Assembly: GCA_017429475.1 (NCBI GenBank)
Contig: JAFROX010000012.1
Coordinates: 1 to 33,804 of the forward strand
DNA from: Bacteroidales bacterium
Lineage (GTDB): Bacteria > Bacteroidota > Bacteroidia > Bacteroidales > UBA932
DNA: 33,804 nucleotides
Reading direction: 5' to 3'
Below the pieces are notes generated by a model. That model ran no database searches. It worked only from the letters and a program-made list of their open reading frames with translations, and had not been told where the DNA came from. Positions 28,802 to 33,804 of this stretch are shown piece after piece. Position 1 is the stretch's first letter; the number at the start of each line of letters is the position of its first letter. Made by a program: the position numbers and the translations under genes.

Positions 28802-28867
28802 TCTCGCAACGCCTTGGTGGTGGAATGGTAGACACGAGGGACTTAGGCTGGTTCTTTGAAATAATTA

Positions 28868-28899
28868 TTTGTAAGACATGATGGTTGATCTTAACTTTG
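28868..28899 (+). promoter_or_regulatory. Promoter inside the intron, before the endonuclease
   Basis: TTTG (28868-28871) and TAACTTTG (28892-28899) are 20 bp apart, an exact Bacteroidota consensus pair. The predicted transcription start falls at or next to the ATG at 28905, so a transcript from here would be leaderless or nearly so. Confidence 0.55.
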
Positions 28900-28904
28900 C
28901 GTGT

Positions 28905-29525
28905 ATGAGCAAAGCAAAATATTCAATCGAAGATGTCAAGCAGGCTGTTTTTGACAGCAAGTCTGTAGCGGGTGTCTTGAGGCAATTAGGGCTAAGACCC
29001 ATTGGTGGGAACTATAGAACCATAAATAGGATAATAGCGGAGAACAAAATCGATATTTCTCATTTCACCGGGCAGGGTTGGAATGTCGGATTGGCCTTCA
29101 AACCGAACAAAGGCATCTCAGATGAAGAAATATATGTAAAAGATTCATCATATAAATGCTCTTGGAGGTTGCGCGAACATTATAAGAAAACTACAGGCAT
29201 CACTCATTGCGAAAAATGTGGTTTGGATAGGTGGCAATCTCAGCCAATTCCATTGGAGATTCATCATATCAATGGTAATAATATGGACAACAGATTGGAG
29301 AATCTTCAACTGCTATGCCCGAACTGCCACGCTCTTACAAAGAATTATAGAGGAAGATCCAAATTGAGTGCTCTGTCCGAAAGGAGAGATGTAGAATGTC
29401 GTAAATTCAAGGAAGCCTTAACGGGTAATGCCGATGGTAATCTTGAGCCAAGCCTTTTCAAAGAGGAAGGTGCAGAGACTAGACACGACACACCTAAAGA
29501 CGATCAGTCCATGGTGAAGGAATAG
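28905..29525 (+). CDS. Intron-encoded HNH homing endonuclease
   Basis: A 206-residue HNH nuclease. The N-terminal half carries the helix-turn-helix-like module seen in phage and intron HNH enzymes (YSIEDVKQAV, VLRQLGL, GGNYRTINR, DISHFTGQGWN). The HNH domain at ~100-150 has two zinc pairs (Cys102/Cys105 and Cys138/Cys141), the EIHHINGNN catalytic block (His120, His121), RLENLQLLCPNCH with Asn133 and His142, and a NYRGR tail. ATGs at 28878 and 28881 extend the frame by nine or eight codons, but they lie before the promoter, and MSKAKYSIED fits the family start. The last ~50 residues are encoded by P2-P8 and the stop lies in P7. The region is AT-richer than neighbouring genes. It would cut intronless trnL(UAA) alleles to spread the intron. 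Confidence 0.9.
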   Translation: MSKAKYSIEDVKQAVFDSKSVAGVLRQLGLRPIGGNYRTINRIIAENKIDISHFTGQGWNVGLAFKPNKGISDEEIYVKDSSYKCSWRLREHYKKTTGITHCEKCGLDRWQSQPIPLEIHHINGNNMDNRLENLQLLCPNCHALTKNYRGRSKLSALSERRDVECRKFKEALTGNADGNLEPSLFKEEGAETRHDTPKDDQSMVKE

Positions 29526-29628
29526 TCCGGACCACAAACAGAGATGGTGGCGAAAGCCATAGTGGCAAGAAAATCCCTTGGGCAGTAATGTCCGTGCGGG
29601 TTCGAGTCCCGCCCGGGGCACTGATTGG

Positions 29629-29665
29629 AAATCCAACCTATTGATATTCAGTAGGTTGGATTTTT
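29629..29665 (+). terminator. Terminator after tRNA-Leu
   Basis: AAATCCAACCTA (29629-29640) and TAGGTTGGATTT (29652-29663) form a perfect 12-bp stem followed by further T residues, 8 bp after the tRNA 3' end. Confidence 0.9.
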
Positions 29666-29679
29666 GCATATAGGATTCT

Positions 29680-29725
29680 TGTCCCACAAATGTCCCAATA
29701 ATTTTGAAAACGGATGAGTTGGGAC
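29680..29725. repeat. Short direct and inverted repeats beyond tRNA-Leu
   Basis: TGTCCCA occurs at 29680-29686 and 29691-29697, and the inverse TTGGGAC at 29719-29725. These may be integrase arm-type sites or the remains of an attachment region, an inference from their position just past a tRNA. Confidence 0.4.
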
Positions 29726-29740
29726 GAAAATGATTGAACG

Positions 29741-29774
29741 AAAAACGGCGCCTCAAAATCACTTCGAGACGCCG
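29741..29774 (-). terminator. Terminator of the phage-like block
   Basis: On the minus strand a 9-bp stem (29774-29766 with 29754-29746, one mismatch) is followed by TTTTT (29745-29741). It is positioned to end the lysozyme-containing transcript. Confidence 0.75.
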
Positions 29775-29852
29775 CGGTTCAATAAATAAGAGTGGCCGAA
29801 GCCAATCTTGGTTGCAAATATAGTCAATTCTGAGAAGAATTCAGAGCAGCCC

Positions 29853-30314
29853 CTACCCCGAGAAGTAAAGGTCGGCTTCCATCTTGCGCCTGCGGACAAG
29901 GCCGGGAAGGCGCTTGCCGCCGCCGTAGACCCAGCGGGCAAACTCGCCGCGGATGGACGGGTCTTTGGGGTTGGCCTTGACTTTCTTCAGCAGTGTTGAC
30001 CGAGCGAGGTTGCCGGTGCCGACGTTGTAGGTGAAGGAGAGGAGGGCGTCGAACTGATGCTGGGAGATCGGAAGGCCGTTGGGCATCCGGCCAGAGTCGT
30101 CGAGGCCCAGGGCGAAGGTGAGGTTGTCTTCGAAGATCCTGATGTCCTGCTCGAGGAACTCGTTCGCCTGTTCGCGGGTGATGGTCATTCCTTCATAGAC
30201 GCCTGCAGTATGGCCCCAGCCGATAGTCCAGACGCCGGCGGGGCACTTGTAGGCGTGGAGCCTGCAACCCTCGAAGGTGTGGACGAGAACGTATGCGGAT
30301 TTGGATGCTTTCAT
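29853..30314 (-). CDS. Phage-type lysozyme (GH24 endolysin)
   Basis: A 153-residue muramidase that cuts the glycan strand of peptidoglycan. The GH24 signature is plain: FEGCRLHAYKCPAGVWTIGW, then GHT, with catalytic Glu15, then Cys24 and Thr30 at the E-8-[D/C]-5-T spacing. Cys in place of Asp is the version known from phage P1 Lyz. A second block QFDALLSFTYNVGTGNLARS and the C-terminal RRRKMEADLYF are also typical. There is no clear signal or SAR sequence at the N-terminus, so export would need a holin; none is seen nearby. It is the last gene of the block, before its terminator. Confidence 0.93.
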   Translation of the reverse strand: MKASKSAYVLVHTFEGCRLHAYKCPAGVWTIGWGHTAGVYEGMTITREQANEFLEQDIRIFEDNLTFALGLDDSGRMPNGLPISQHQFDALLSFTYNVGTGNLARSTLLKKVKANPKDPSIRGEFARWVYGGGKRLPGLVRRRKMEADLYFSG

Positions 30315-30386
30315 GACGATGAGGATATAAAAGACTCCCGTCTGACGTGAGCCGGGCGGGAGTCCGTGGGAGAGGGGGTCTGATGC

Positions 30387-31076
30387 CTACTCGCTGGAGA
30401 GCTTGGCCTGGGCAAGTACGTCTCCGGACTTCTCGCCGGTGGCGGTGTTCACGTAGAAGTACTTGAAGAAGACCTTCGGGCTGCCGGCGGAAGGAGCGCC
30501 GCACTTGCTGTCGTAGGCACTCTTGATGTCGATGGCCGTGGCCACGGGAGTGTACGGGTCAGCGAAGGCAGCAGCCTTGCTGTAGGCGCGGGTGATACCG
30601 TTACCCTGGGGATCGGAGGCCTGGATGACGAGTTTCAGGTTGGTCACATCGCTGGGGATGGTGGCCAGCTGGAAGGTCATCGCAGAGGCGGTGAGGGTGA
30701 TGGTCGCGGAATCCGGAGCGACGACACCGGCCAGGTTGGGCACGGCGGTCATGATGTTGCCGCCGCAGTAGACCACCCAGTAGTTCAGCCTCATGAAGAG
30801 GTTGGCACCGGAGATCTTGGCTTTGGTACCGAGAACGGACTTGCCCTGTGCGGTGTTGGCCGCGGCATTCCAGGCGAGGATCTGCTCGTTGGTGAGACCC
30901 TGCCAGGCCTGAGAGAGCTGCTTGAAGACAGCTTTTACGGAAGACTGGAACGCGGTCCTGGTGGAGCCGCCGTATCCACGGTTGCGGATGTACTTACGAC
31001 CGCGCGTCTTGGCAGCGGTGACACCCTTTGCGGAGCCCGACATTTCGTCGAAGGCGATAGAAGGATTGTACTTCAT
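30387..31076 (-). CDS. Phage-like paralogue A, unknown function
   Basis: A 229-residue protein that I cannot assign to a named family. The N-terminal ~105 residues carry the block's shared module: MKYNPSIAFDEMSGSAKGVT at the start, a helical region ending LTNEQILAWNAAA, and SGANLFMRLN. The C-terminal half is beta-rich and ends with a shared motif, VFFKYFYVNTATGEKSG. It is unlike the lysozyme before it. Abundant Ala, Thr and Gly and the lack of signal peptide and catalytic motif suggest a virion structural or assembly protein. Its closest relatives here are the proteins at 31880 and 33040. Confidence 0.75.
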   Translation of the reverse strand: MKYNPSIAFDEMSGSAKGVTAAKTRGRKYIRNRGYGGSTRTAFQSSVKAVFKQLSQAWQGLTNEQILAWNAAANTAQGKSVLGTKAKISGANLFMRLNYWVVYCGGNIMTAVPNLAGVVAPDSATITLTASAMTFQLATIPSDVTNLKLVIQASDPQGNGITRAYSKAAAFADPYTPVATAIDIKSAYDSKCGAPSAGSPKVFFKYFYVNTATGEKSGDVLAQAKLSSE

Positions 31077-31108
31077 GGCGCAAATAGATTAAAAGTTAAA
31101 CAAATGGT

Positions 31109-31861
31109 TTATTCTGATGTGTTGTCATTGTTGTCTCTGACGAGGAAGGCATATACGAAGGGATCGTGAGCGGTGTCGAAGAATCCCATCACGCGGCGCT
31201 GGTTGCTGAGCACCTTGTTCTCGATGTGGGCTTCTGCCATACCGTCGCAGTTGGGGTGCATCTGGTTGCCGCCTCCGCAGATCGGAACATCAGCCGTGAT
31301 GTCTGCAGGCAGCTGCTCCATCGTTACCTCCCACAGCGCGTCCCTGTAAGCGTAAGAAACGCCGGAAAACATCAGGTGGATGAACACCCAGTGCTCGAAC
31401 TCCACCATAAAGGTCTCGTAGCCGAAGCGCAGGTAATTGCCTTCCGTGGTCATCGTAAGGCGTTGCATCGTGCTCTTGATGGTGTCGCTGCCCTGATTCA
31501 GCTGCGGGTAGAGCGTGAGTATGTAGATGATGAGCGGGCCGTTCTCGTCGAACCAGGGCTGTTTCTCGATGACGATGGTGTTCTTGTCCTTGATCCAGGA
31601 CTTGAGCACCGTACCGCCGTCATACACGGAATCACCCCAGGAGTAGTGGTAATCCTCGACAAAGCGAATGAAGACTCCACCCACAGCACTGCGGTCGATG
31701 ATCAGATCCGGAACGTAGATTTCCAGCTGGTCGCAGGCCTGGTAGTCGGCATTCGTCGGGTCAAACGTGAACTTGGAGTTCAGGACCACGTAGTTCTCCG
31801 CCTGGTAATCCTTGAAGGTTATCTGGCCGGCTCCGAAGTTATTTCCAATACTGTTGAACAT
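31109..31861 (-). CDS. Conserved protein of unknown function in the phage-like block
   Basis: A 250-residue protein lying between two of the paralogues but lacking their shared module. It has beta-rich stretches (LEIYVPDLIIDRSAVGGVFI, TLYPQLNQGSDT), many aromatic residues, a Cys-rich GGGNQMHPNCDG segment and an acidic Asn-rich C-terminus (VRDNNDNTSE). No signal peptide, membrane segment or known catalytic motif is visible. Its position and the same strand imply co-transcription with the paralogues; a baseplate or fibre component is possible but not shown by the sequence. Confidence 0.7.
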   Translation of the reverse strand: MFNSIGNNFGAGQITFKDYQAENYVVLNSKFTFDPTNADYQACDQLEIYVPDLIIDRSAVGGVFIRFVEDYHYSWGDSVYDGGTVLKSWIKDKNTIVIEKQPWFDENGPLIIYILTLYPQLNQGSDTIKSTMQRLTMTTEGNYLRFGYETFMVEFEHWVFIHLMFSGVSYAYRDALWEVTMEQLPADITADVPICGGGNQMHPNCDGMAEAHIENKVLSNQRRVMGFFDTAHDPFVYAFLVRDNNDNTSE

Positions 31862-31879
31862 AGTCGTTGCGATAGGGGA

Positions 31880-32926
31880 TTAGTAGATGATTCCGGAGCC
31901 AAAGCACTCAGTAGGCATTACGTAGTAGCCGCCACGATGGGCGAATGTCATTTTAGCACCATCGGAAAGATTATATATGTAGACCAGGTAAGACTGCGGG
32001 ATAATCTTGCCGTCAGCGCCATTCCCGCGGCCCAGGCAGATGCCTGTACCGATGACATCGGCAGGAAGCGGACGATCCAGATACACCTCGGAAGAAGCGA
32101 CGTTGCTGTGGCCCAGGCACATTGCGTTGAACTCTGCCACGGGAACGCCGGTGGAGAAGTCCACATCCAGCGAAGAAACATGGCTTTCCTCTGTCGGGTC
32201 AAGATCGTCCATCGTAGCGCGGACACGCTGCCCGGACGGGCTTTCTCCGGTTACTATGGCCACGTCCTGGAGTACTTGCCCGGCGAAGCCGGTAGCCGTA
32301 TCCATCCAGTAGGATTCGACGAAGACCTTCTGGCCGGGAACGGGCTCCACGCCGATGGTTTTGAAGTACAGCTTGGTCACGTCAGCCTGGCCCCAGTCGT
32401 CCTCCATACCGGGAGAGACGATGACAGTCTTGCTCCAGCCGTTGGAGATGCCGACACTCTGGGTGCCGGACATCTTCACGACCAGCTTGTAAGGGGAAGG
32501 GGCGTGCTTGATGCCGTTGATGGCGATGAATTCGGGAGTAACGACCGCCTCGTCGTAAACCACGATCGGAATGGTCCCGTGATAGGAAGGCGCATCCCTG
32601 AGAATGGGCTCTCCTGCCATGACACGATTGGAGTTGAGACGGACGAAAGCGTTGTGGCCGGTCATCTCGGCGGCAGAGCCGATGGAGGACGCAGCCTTCA
32701 TATGAGATGCCAAGACCTCCCAGGCTTGCATTTGGGAATCAGAGAGCTGCTTATACTCCCGGGAGATCTTGGACAACTGATTTCGAGTGGTAGCCTGGGC
32801 CGGCGTGACGACCTTGCTCTGGAAGGCCCGGACGGAGAGGATATTGCGCCCATTGACGTTCCTCGCGGTGACATCCTTCGCGGTGCCGGCGAAGTCGTTG
32901 AACGCTATGGAAGGCTTTGCTATCAT
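31880..32926 (-). CDS. Phage-like paralogue B, long form
   Basis: A 348-residue protein; the frame also opens with GTG at 32962, but that codon touches the -7 box, and MIAKPSIAF aligns with the other paralogues' starts, so I take the ATG at 32926. It has the shared module (KPSIAFNDFAGTAKDVTARN, the Arg/Gln-rich helix LSDSQMQAWEVLA, TGHNAFVRLNSN) and the beta motif VFVESYWMDTATGFAG near residue 220. An extra ~110 residues follow, containing DLDPTEESHVSSLDVDFSTG and GTGICLGRGNGADG, absent from A and C. That extension may carry its specificity. The family is not recognised; a structural role is inferred. Confidence 0.75.
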   Translation of the reverse strand: MIAKPSIAFNDFAGTAKDVTARNVNGRNILSVRAFQSKVVTPAQATTRNQLSKISREYKQLSDSQMQAWEVLASHMKAASSIGSAAEMTGHNAFVRLNSNRVMAGEPILRDAPSYHGTIPIVVYDEAVVTPEFIAINGIKHAPSPYKLVVKMSGTQSVGISNGWSKTVIVSPGMEDDWGQADVTKLYFKTIGVEPVPGQKVFVESYWMDTATGFAGQVLQDVAIVTGESPSGQRVRATMDDLDPTEESHVSSLDVDFSTGVPVAEFNAMCLGHSNVASSEVYLDRPLPADVIGTGICLGRGNGADGKIIPQSYLVYIYNLSDGAKMTFAHRGGYYVMPTECFGSGIIY

Positions 32927-32961
32927 AATCTTCTTATGGGTAGCAGCCTCTGATTCCGACA

Positions 32962-32969
32962 CAAATATA
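32962..32969 (-). promoter_or_regulatory. -7 promoter box for the phage-like genes
   Basis: On the minus strand TATATTTG fits TAnnTTTG, about 35 nt before the ATG at 32926. It could drive paralogue B through the lysozyme. Confidence 0.5.
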
Positions 32970-32980
32970 CAAAAAGTTTT

Positions 32981-33006
32981 CTAATTATTCAAATACAAAT
33001 AATTAG
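32981..33006. repeat. AT-rich inverted repeat upstream of paralogue B
   Basis: CTAATTATT (32981-32989) and AATAATTAG (32998-33006) are perfect inverted copies around 8 nt, just upstream of the -7 box. It could be an operator or a weak hairpin for paralogue C's transcript. The surrounding ~70 bp are much more AT-rich than the genes. Confidence 0.5.
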
Positions 33007-33039
33007 ATACGATTGTATAAAGTATTACTTTAGGTAAAT

Positions 33040-33753
33040 TTACAGCTCCATCAGGAAGGATTTCTTCCGGAAAATGTTGCGGTAGCCGGTCTCGGAGTCG
33101 AGCAGAAAGTACCGGAAATGCACCTGGTACTCCGGCAGGTCGAGGTCCCAGATGTCCTTGTATCCGGGGACCAGCACTTCCACGATGCAGTCATCGGAAG
33201 AGCAGTTCTGCTGGGCGACGAACGACCTAAGGTAGCCGGGCCTTCTGCCTGCTCCGGGCGTGGTGAGCTGGAGACGGACCGCCAGCCGGTAGCGGGAAGG
33301 ATTGGCGCAGCGATCCAGACGCACCCGCAGCTTGAGCGAAAGGGTGGTGCCATCCACGACTGACGCCGAGTGGAACTCGCAGTATAGCGGCGGGAAGTCC
33401 TCGAAGGCCCTGGGTACCGGCACGTGCTCATTGTCCAGCTGCGCGAAGCCATGGTAGCCGGACACGAAGAGATTGTGGCCGGTGATGTGGTGGTCCTTGC
33501 GGAACGGCGGCCGGTGGCTCTGCACGGTCAGCGCCAGCATGTTCCACTGCTCCTGCGTCAGGGGATCGAGGTCACGCCAGGCCTGCAGCGCACGAAGATG
33601 CACGGACTGCGCTTCCAGCTGCCCCAGGGTGCCCGGAAACTCCGGATGCGCCCGCTTCTTCCAGTAGCAGATGCCGTTCCTGTGGTAGAACGTGACATCA
33701 CCCACTGAAGACCAGCAGTCGGAGAATCGGATATTTGGGTTATACCTGGGCAT
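33040..33753 (-). CDS. Phage-like paralogue C, unknown function
   Basis: A 237-residue protein. The frame is open to the window edge from a TTG, but MPRYNPNIRFSDCWSSVGDV matches the starts of paralogues A and B, so the ATG at 33753 is preferred and the gene is complete. The module is present but diverged: helical LDPLTQEQWNMLALTVQ, then ITGHNLFVSG. The C-terminus has the shared beta motif YQVHFRYFLLDSETGYRN. It differs from A and B in being rich in Arg, Trp and His. A separate promoter likely serves B onwards, since ~110 bp of AT-rich sequence lies downstream. Confidence 0.75.
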   Translation of the reverse strand: MPRYNPNIRFSDCWSSVGDVTFYHRNGICYWKKRAHPEFPGTLGQLEAQSVHLRALQAWRDLDPLTQEQWNMLALTVQSHRPPFRKDHHITGHNLFVSGYHGFAQLDNEHVPVPRAFEDFPPLYCEFHSASVVDGTTLSLKLRVRLDRCANPSRYRLAVRLQLTTPGAGRRPGYLRSFVAQQNCSSDDCIVEVLVPGYKDIWDLDLPEYQVHFRYFLLDSETGYRNIFRKKSFLMEL

Positions 33754-33804
33754 ACTGTGCAGTCTATGGCCGGGGCAGGGGTCGCGCCTTGAACTCTTGA
33801 ACAA

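Follow-up and report, generated by a model that had tools for sequence, protein, structure and literature searches.

A probably mobile group I intron with an HNH endonuclease gene splits the UUA-codon leucine tRNA gene of a gut Bacteroidales bacterium

The UUA-codon leucine tRNA gene of a gut Bacteroidales bacterium is split by a probably mobile group I intron that carries an HNH endonuclease gene. The locus lies in what we call the window, the whole stretch of 33,804 nucleotides that was analyzed, and its features are listed in Table 1. The evidence comes from the split gene, its ribozyme core, empty sites within the genus, a conserved protein, the frame of the gene encoding it, and a recurrent association with tRNA-Leu; the signal from split gene, core, and empty sites is far beyond chance. 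As an explanation of the whole, we consider it likely that the intron, residing in the only tRNA-Leu(UAA) gene found, is mobilized by HNH-driven homing and that it belongs to a lineage that phages carry too.

Table 1 Features of the split tRNA-Leu(UAA) gene, in window coordinates
Feature	Position	Strand	Remarks
5' exon of tRNA-Leu(UAA)	28811-28844	+	ends at U34 (GGGACTT)
Group I intron	28845-29569	+	725 nt, starts AGGCTGG, terminal G at 29569
Promoter-like motif TTTG-N20-TAACTTTG	TTTG 28868-28871, TAACTTTG 28892-28899	+	within the loop of P1; the HNH ATG follows after 5 nt
HNH endonuclease ORF	28905-29525	+	206 codons plus UAG; HNH part ~28905-29363; remainder encoded by ribozyme core
Internal guide sequence GAGUG	29366-29370	+	pairs with 5' exon ACUU (P1), U34 opposite G; hand-drawn
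P2 hairpin, GAAA loop	29373-29388	+	one of six pairs is G-G in the window
P3 5' strand	29397-29402	+	partner 29485-29490; one covarying pair
P4-P5	29407-29446	+	P4 is 29407-29411 with 29442-29446; P4 and P5 invariant, P5a covaries
P6-P6a	29447-29471	+	P6 invariant; four of four P6a pairs changed on both sides
P7 5' strand	29477-29481	+	partner 29523-29527; no covariation, one unpaired cell
P3 3' strand	29485-29490	+	hand structure
P8 and P8a	29492-29515	+	P8 is 29492-29494 with 29513-29515; P8 invariant, P8a covaries; loop short in the window
P7 3' strand	29523-29527	+	contains UAG 29523-29525, the HNH ORF stop
P9 and P9.1	29532-29565	+	one covarying pair each
3' exon of tRNA-Leu(UAA)	29570-29620	+	joined exons called by ARAGORN

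The split tRNA gene and its ribozyme core

ARAGORN calls a tRNA-Leu(taa) when the two window exons are joined and no tRNA-Leu in the unjoined window, in line with an earlier note on this DNA, which had the gene split by 725 nt after U34. Among 48 bacterial split loci, a set that includes near-copies such as L006 and L037, the joined exons give tRNA-Leu(taa) in 47 and the unjoined loci in none; the sole miss, L005, is cut by a contig end. Comparison of the sequences confirms the insert as a group I intron placed after U34. We suppose that the pre-tRNA folds the P3-P9 core and splices at U34, which would leave a normal tRNA.

The covariance search that had been proposed for this locus gave a match to RF00028 at 29355-29550 (51.3 bits, E 2.2e-10), barely above the curated gathering score of 50. 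Because this score is marginal, a comparative core was drawn by hand on the aligned cores of relatives, comprising P2, P3, P4, P5, P5a, P6, P6a, P7, P8, P8a, P9, and P9.1. This structure bears out the P3-P8 core that the earlier note had described as drawable by hand: standard pairs are found in 99.2% of 1680 cells (35 distinct cores, P3/P7 pseudoknot included), and pairing falls to 30-42% when partners are slid by 1-3 columns. Compensatory changes, with both sides altered, occur in 16 of 48 pairs, compared to a mean of 8.4 in shuffled data, with none of 500 shuffles as high; further pair types were not in excess of shuffles (219 of 500). The covariation evidence does not extend to P4, P5, P6, and P8, which are invariant over the 35 cores, nor to P7, which has only one unpaired cell. 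Additional changes in P3 are seen by eye in viral cores; viral P3 and P8 pairing was read in this way throughout, and in the joint bacterial and viral alignment the segment 3' of the P8 insertion is out of register.

We observe the features expected of a group I intron, namely a P3-P9 core with the P3/P7 pseudoknot, a terminal G, and a U before the 5' splice site (the exon ends CTT) that lies opposite a G of the guide (GAGTG) in a hand-drawn P1. The guide is invariant in 37 aligned rows and in another 30, the two sets overlapping. Since it pairs with ACUU of the 5' exon, the HNH gene sits in the P1 loop.

The HNH protein and the reading frame through the core

That the intron has its own HNH gene, as claimed before, is upheld by the longer ORF at 28878-29525, which narrowly exceeds the Pfam cut-offs for HNH (23.6 versus 21.4 bits) and HNH_3 (25.1 versus 24.8 bits); the start codon kept in relatives is the ATG at 28905. 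Seven residues (C102, C105, H121, N133, C138, C141, and H142) are invariant in 37 HNH sequences, and we take them to be the metal and zinc-knuckle residues of HNH proteins. In 24 comparisons, limited to dS values of 0.1-1.5 with all others dropped, the HNH part has a median dN/dS of 0.09 at a median dS of 1.2, which is near saturation; the window and L037 differ by a dN of 0.038 and a dS of 0.192. These values indicate that the HNH part is under purifying selection. In the core-encoded tail the median dS is 0.26, and this low synonymous divergence implies that RNA constraint dominates there. The AlphaFold model of the window protein has a mean pLDDT of 78, with residues 184-206 below 50, and a sequence search of solved structures gave a single match at E 0.31. 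Weak NCBIfam matches to RNA-guided IscB (23.7 bits, curated cut-off 175) and Zorya ZorE (25.2 bits, cut-off 600) cover the HNH region, and at whole-protein level both identities were rejected.

The window ORF runs from the P1 loop through P2-P7 to the UAG in the 3' strand of P7. Among the ORFs of the 34 type-A introns, the group that includes the window and in which L006 and L037 are probably one contig, 18 (window included) reach the UAG in P7', 12 stop in P6a, two stop elsewhere, and two are cut by contig ends. Five viral relatives (L106, L110, L112, L115, and L223) have about 220-240 extra nucleotides in the P8 loop, and all five contain a single ORF of 277-287 codons that leads from the P1 loop through the core and the P8 loop to the P7 UAG. 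A Bacillota MAG (L054) has the same layout, with its stop slightly further on. The window ORF shares its frame and its stop codon with these phage relatives but has no P8-loop domain. This domain has three invariant cysteines and helices predicted by AlphaFold, with Pfam zinc and helix-turn-helix matches below threshold only, and it may be a cysteine-rich, helix-turn-helix-like domain. In free-standing homologues (e.g. L113, L119, L123, and L125) the added part follows immediately on the HNH domain, uninterrupted by a ribozyme.

We modeled one two-domain protein with AlphaFold. Block means of pLDDT are 81-94 over most of the HNH part and 72-92 in the added part, and values below 50 occur at residues 57-66 and 151-195. 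In this protein the core starts at about residue 152 and the 5' strand of P8 ends at about residue 195; the second of the two low stretches thus coincides almost exactly with what the core encodes, so the core would read as a disordered linker. When the two-domain model was used for a fold search, no structure matched at E 0.001 or better.

From these sequences we lean slightly towards the reading that the ribozyme core is also translated in phages and Bacillota, the frame through it joining the HNH domain in the P1 loop to the cysteine-rich domain in the P8 loop, and that the window ORF is the same gene minus the P8-loop domain. The lineage would then be a dedicated tRNA-Leu parasite of phages and Bacteroidales, with upstream, downstream, P1-loop, P6-loop, and P8-loop positions. 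It is possible, if rather doubtful, that the frame is accidental, no stop happening to precede the core and the tail being functionless. Such an accident would fit the type-A ORFs that end in P6a or elsewhere, the divergence of the tail, which tracks RNA constraint, and the different phase of the guide-to-P7' distance in five ORF-bearing type-A introns (L030, L033, L036, L038, and L039). It fits less well with the six copies that have the P8-loop domain (L106, L110, L112, L115, L223, and L054), in all of which the core is open and the guide-to-P7 distances (120, 108, 108, 108, 111, and 117, respectively) are multiples of 3, compared to four of nine intronic copies without the domain, a count that is weak alone given that the six copies are related. 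The end motif YGI-L/M-x-x-V/I-K, which is similar in the ribozyme-free homologues L113, L119, L123, and L125, also speaks against it. If the core is indeed translated, a catalytic core doubles as linker-coding sequence, which is an unusual overlap of RNA and protein, and the question arises how translation and splicing stay apart.

The promoter-like motif in the P1 loop corresponds to what is presumably the Bacteroides-type promoter consensus. The strict pattern is present in 15 of the 34 type-A introns and the loose one in 24, where first-order Markov shuffles predict 0.08 and 0.30, a comparison that overstates the excess since the rows are related; in ten of the 34 the motif is absent even in its loose form. 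This is suggestive of an internal promoter, from which the HNH gene would most likely be transcribed. Since a start at this motif lies 3' of the 5' splice site, the resulting transcript would lack that site, and translation of such an HNH mRNA would be no competitor of splicing.

Relatives, empty sites, and mobility

The earlier note knew of no other ORF-bearing trnL(UAA) intron in Bacteroidota; the protein search shows that such introns are not unique to this genome. We sorted 59 genome loci with a related protein by hand according to position. In 44 of them a split tRNA-Leu gene, with one or both halves seen, contains the HNH gene: 35 are type A (Bacteroidia or Bacteroidales MAGs), eight are type B (five Prevotellaceae), and one is the Bacillota copy L054. 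In six loci (L041, L048, L051, L060, L061, and L065) the split gene is ORF-less and the HNH gene is found downstream of it. In seven (L047, L056, L057, L058, L063, L064, and L066) the HNH gene adjoins an intact tRNA-Leu, the hosts being Hymenobacter, Pseudonocardia, Berkelbacteria, Moraniibacteriota, a delta-proteobacterial MAG, and two others. Two loci (L043 and L067) show neither arrangement. For ten free-standing bacterial copies, L105 included, the nearest tRNA is Leu in eight of the nine having a tRNA, at a distance of 0-16 bp; because few tRNAs are near, the control within loci has little power here (265 of 5000 draws as high). The HNH stop codon lies 10-54 nt inside the tRNA gene in six of seven cases (L047, L056, L058, L063, L064, and L105; not L057). 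Among 295 Bacteroidia genomes the HNH gene was found in two, including the genome of the window itself, and RF00028 matches were found in 17 of 395 genomes under stricter filters.

Some of these loci are rearranged. In L025 (5677-5790) the intron is followed by a tandem duplication of the 3' tRNA half. In L065 (5360-5950) a rearranged duplicate, consisting of a partial second intron copy with anticodon arm and HNH gene, follows the ORF-less split tRNA. In Hymenobacter L067 (4960-5330) the HNH relative is broken off after the first cysteine pair, 988 bp from trnL(UAA).

A search of viral contigs, whose labels rest mostly on the IMG/VR classification, gave 52 loci, some of them weak. In nine (L106, L109, L110, L112, L115, L117, L223, L235, and L247) the HNH gene lies in an intron-split gene with the same guide, and the joined exons give tRNA-Leu(taa) in all except L223. 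Core motifs are also present in L244, L245, L246, L128, and L260. The RF00028 cut-off was passed by two viral introns, L235 (63.3 bits) and L247 (51.3 bits), while L223 gave a partial match (39.2 bits). Among 20 sources scanned at the gathering score, L106, L109, L110, L112, L115, L117, and L054 fell below it; L117, L177, and L054 had no match at E 0.01, and L244 and L128 had none at E 0.05, so that some viral cores are defined by motifs and joined exons only. The exact type-A core pattern, which is too strict, had no match in viral contigs, and a looser pattern had five. The 595-kb phage LR756511 (L269, 750-1650) has an HNH gene in what appears by eye to be the P6 loop of a trnL(UAA) intron, and ORF-less trnL(UAA) introns occur in the 735-kb phage LR756501 (L270) and the cultured Agrobacterium phage Atu_ph07 (L271); the joined exons of all three give tRNA-Leu(taa).

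In a hand re-tally of free-standing viral copies, with the intronic L106, L109, L110, L112, L115, L117, and L128 set aside, the nearest tRNA is Leu in 14 of the 17 that have a tRNA. With these seven included, 23 of 25 viral loci have a tRNA and Leu is nearest in 15, compared to a within-locus mean of 7.84, a result reached in 0 of 5000 draws. We suggest that the HNH lineage, which phages also carry, is a tRNA-Leu specialist that would move among free-standing, flanking, and intronic positions.

Three viral loci have further peculiarities. The crAss-like phage cr111_1 (L088, 2941-3481) has its HNH gene directly behind tRNA-Leu, followed by a second tRNA 3' end. A 245-kb viral contig (L117, 2387-2642; also L177) carries a permuted tmRNA gene whose end lies some 260 nt upstream of its split trnL(UAA), and the viral contig of L235 has a second RF00028 match (1245-1491, 65.9 bits).

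Within the genus, 26 genomes, the window's included, were surveyed with the 85-nt tRNA as query. A full-length intronless match was found in seven (G001, G002, G004, G022, G025, G016, and G021) and a nearly full-length one, at 87%, in two (G012 and G011). Five gave two halves (G000, G006, G019, G020, and G023), one (G008) gave the 5' half alone, followed by an ORF-less intron up to the contig end, and 11 gave no tRNA match. When G001, G002, G004, and G022 are aligned to the window, the alignment breaks off at 28845 and is taken up again from 29570, the base in the relative's sequence being the same, with one shared A; the upstream flank is 79-82% identical over about 1.5 kb, and downstream of the empty site only 52 bases align (97 in G004). 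Occupied and empty alleles thus occur at one site, as is characteristic of homing elements.

The downstream flank, 29622-33804, is not common to the relatives compared, whose alignments end at 29621-29666. It begins with a phage-type endolysin gene at 29853-30314 (minus strand), after which come ORFs without Pfam or PHROGs matches, and it may be a prophage remnant or an island located behind the tRNA. In two same-genus genomes, truncated 5' tRNA-Leu copies lie about 170 bp upstream of the real gene (L094 at ~1350-1395; L098, reverse, at ~1335-1375).

As the earlier note had suggested, we infer that the intron moved laterally, carried by the HNH gene, because presence is patchy within the genus with exact empty sites, because the HNH gene is rare in the class, and because viral and bacterial copies interleave on the trees. 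The HNH protein would cut or nick an intronless tRNA-Leu gene, and repair would copy the intron into the cut allele. An old, immobile resident intron, inherited vertically with occasional loss and containing by chance a separate tRNA-Leu parasite, is in our view distinctly unlikely. It would accommodate the ORF-less introns with the same core type in the genus (G006, G020, G023, and G008), the trnL(UAA) introns of other Bacteroidia, and the intron-free HNH copies that adjoin tRNA-Leu. It would also accommodate the HNH tree (83 rows), where intronic position changes 12 times, at least seven of them forced by starred branches; on the same tree, however, virus and bacterium change nine times, at least five of them forced (the bootstrap is not fully settled, and 14 rows were left out, namely L006, ten identical proteins, and three long viral branches). 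The cores themselves point to transfer of the intron, since type-A bacterial cores group with viral cores and not with type-B Bacteroidales: in the core tree (51 rows), L054 and four viral cores join 22 type-A bacterial ones in a group with support 100/99, and viral L117 falls inside type B, with six of 57 cores dropped for want of a pattern match and a long-branch warning for L109 and L054. Similarly, the window core is identical to viral L110 at 110 of 133 positions versus 89 of 151 with Prevotellaceae L045, gap columns counted.

The check for an intact tRNA-Leu(UAA) elsewhere, which the earlier note had called for, found none in the window genome or in G019. In the former, 80% complete, the tRNA scan gave 43 matches, and among those examined, a set without nine short ones (71-75 nt), the Leu tRNAs are only TAG, CAA, CAG, and GAG. 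G019, of the same genus and 100% complete, carries the same 725-nt intron; its eight tRNA matches of at least 82 nt are four Leu (TAG, CAA, CAG, and GAG), three Ser, and one Tyr, and the 85-nt query gives only the two halves, so the split gene appears to be the sole trnL(UAA) found in this sister genome. A tRNA gene in decay, or one that the cell could spare, is a highly improbable reading of the locus, since, despite the incompleteness of the window genome and the rarity of UUA (7 of 6024 codons in ten window ORFs), the long tRNAs of G019 include no intact UAA gene, and the tRNA halves, splice sites, and core are kept in dozens of loci.

Relation to known introns and homing endonucleases

Cyanobacteria and plastids have in trnL(UAA) a textbook example of an ancient intron, short and as a rule ORF-less, and how it first moved is an open question. 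The window intron interrupts the same gene at what is presumably the same U34/A35 site, as the earlier note had it, and the group I core is compact in both. It differs in having an HNH gene in the P1 loop and in its presence and absence within a genus, and it is neither short nor ORF-less. The intron is mentioned for Nodularia (PMC3610870) and also in PMC4476775. The view that such introns are typical of these lineages proved too narrow: group I introns interrupt tRNA-Leu-TAA outside cyanobacteria, as in the window, in the Beggiatoaceae BOGUAY and Thiomargarita Bud S10, and the excerpt describing them gives a span of 353 nt for the interrupted gene and does not mention an endonuclease (PMC4853749). 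The window intron brings together, at this site, an endonuclease, empty alleles within its genus, and phage relatives, which makes its mobility testable.

I-Ssp6803I, of the Synechocystis tRNA-fMet intron, also belongs to a group I intron that carries an endonuclease gene and interrupts the anticodon loop of a bacterial tRNA; it is a PD-(D/E)XK enzyme in another tRNA, not an HNH protein. The HNH homing endonucleases of phage introns (I-HmuI and I-PfoP3I), taken together with free-standing HNH genes and collaborative homing, resemble the present lineage in their HNH domain, in having intronic and free-standing forms, and in a gene flanking an intron; to our knowledge they target protein genes. 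In fungal mitochondria, intron ORFs are fused to the upstream exon and their frame overlaps ribozyme core elements, whereas the phage and Bacillota relatives described here would place two endonuclease domains on opposite flanks of the core, one in the P1 loop and the other in the P8 loop, and in a tRNA intron. According to a 2014 review, all phage introns so far were in protein-coding genes, despite many phage tRNA genes (PMC3984707). Titles and abstract openings of the literature, with most subscription journals outside this set, revealed no Bacteroidota trnL intron, no phage tRNA intron with an HNH gene, and no endonuclease with parts on both sides of a ribozyme core. One HNH lineage in so many positions around a single tRNA can be regarded as giving snapshots of an endonuclease and an intron joining. 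By its authors' account, tRNAscan-SE is not built for group I introns (PMC8450103); tRNAs were found with it in PMC7162821, where the word "intron" is absent from the main text.

Other introns were noticed by eye in Bacteroidia. L159, L161, L164, L171, L172, and L176 are trnL(UAA) group I introns from other families, too short for an HNH gene, and L163, L166, L168, and L174 are apparent introns in tRNA-fMet, with others in further tRNAs. In L175 (reverse, ~1060-1800) an HNH relative lies in an apparent tRNA-Leu intron whose 5' exon ends in C, the anticodon being perhaps CAA.
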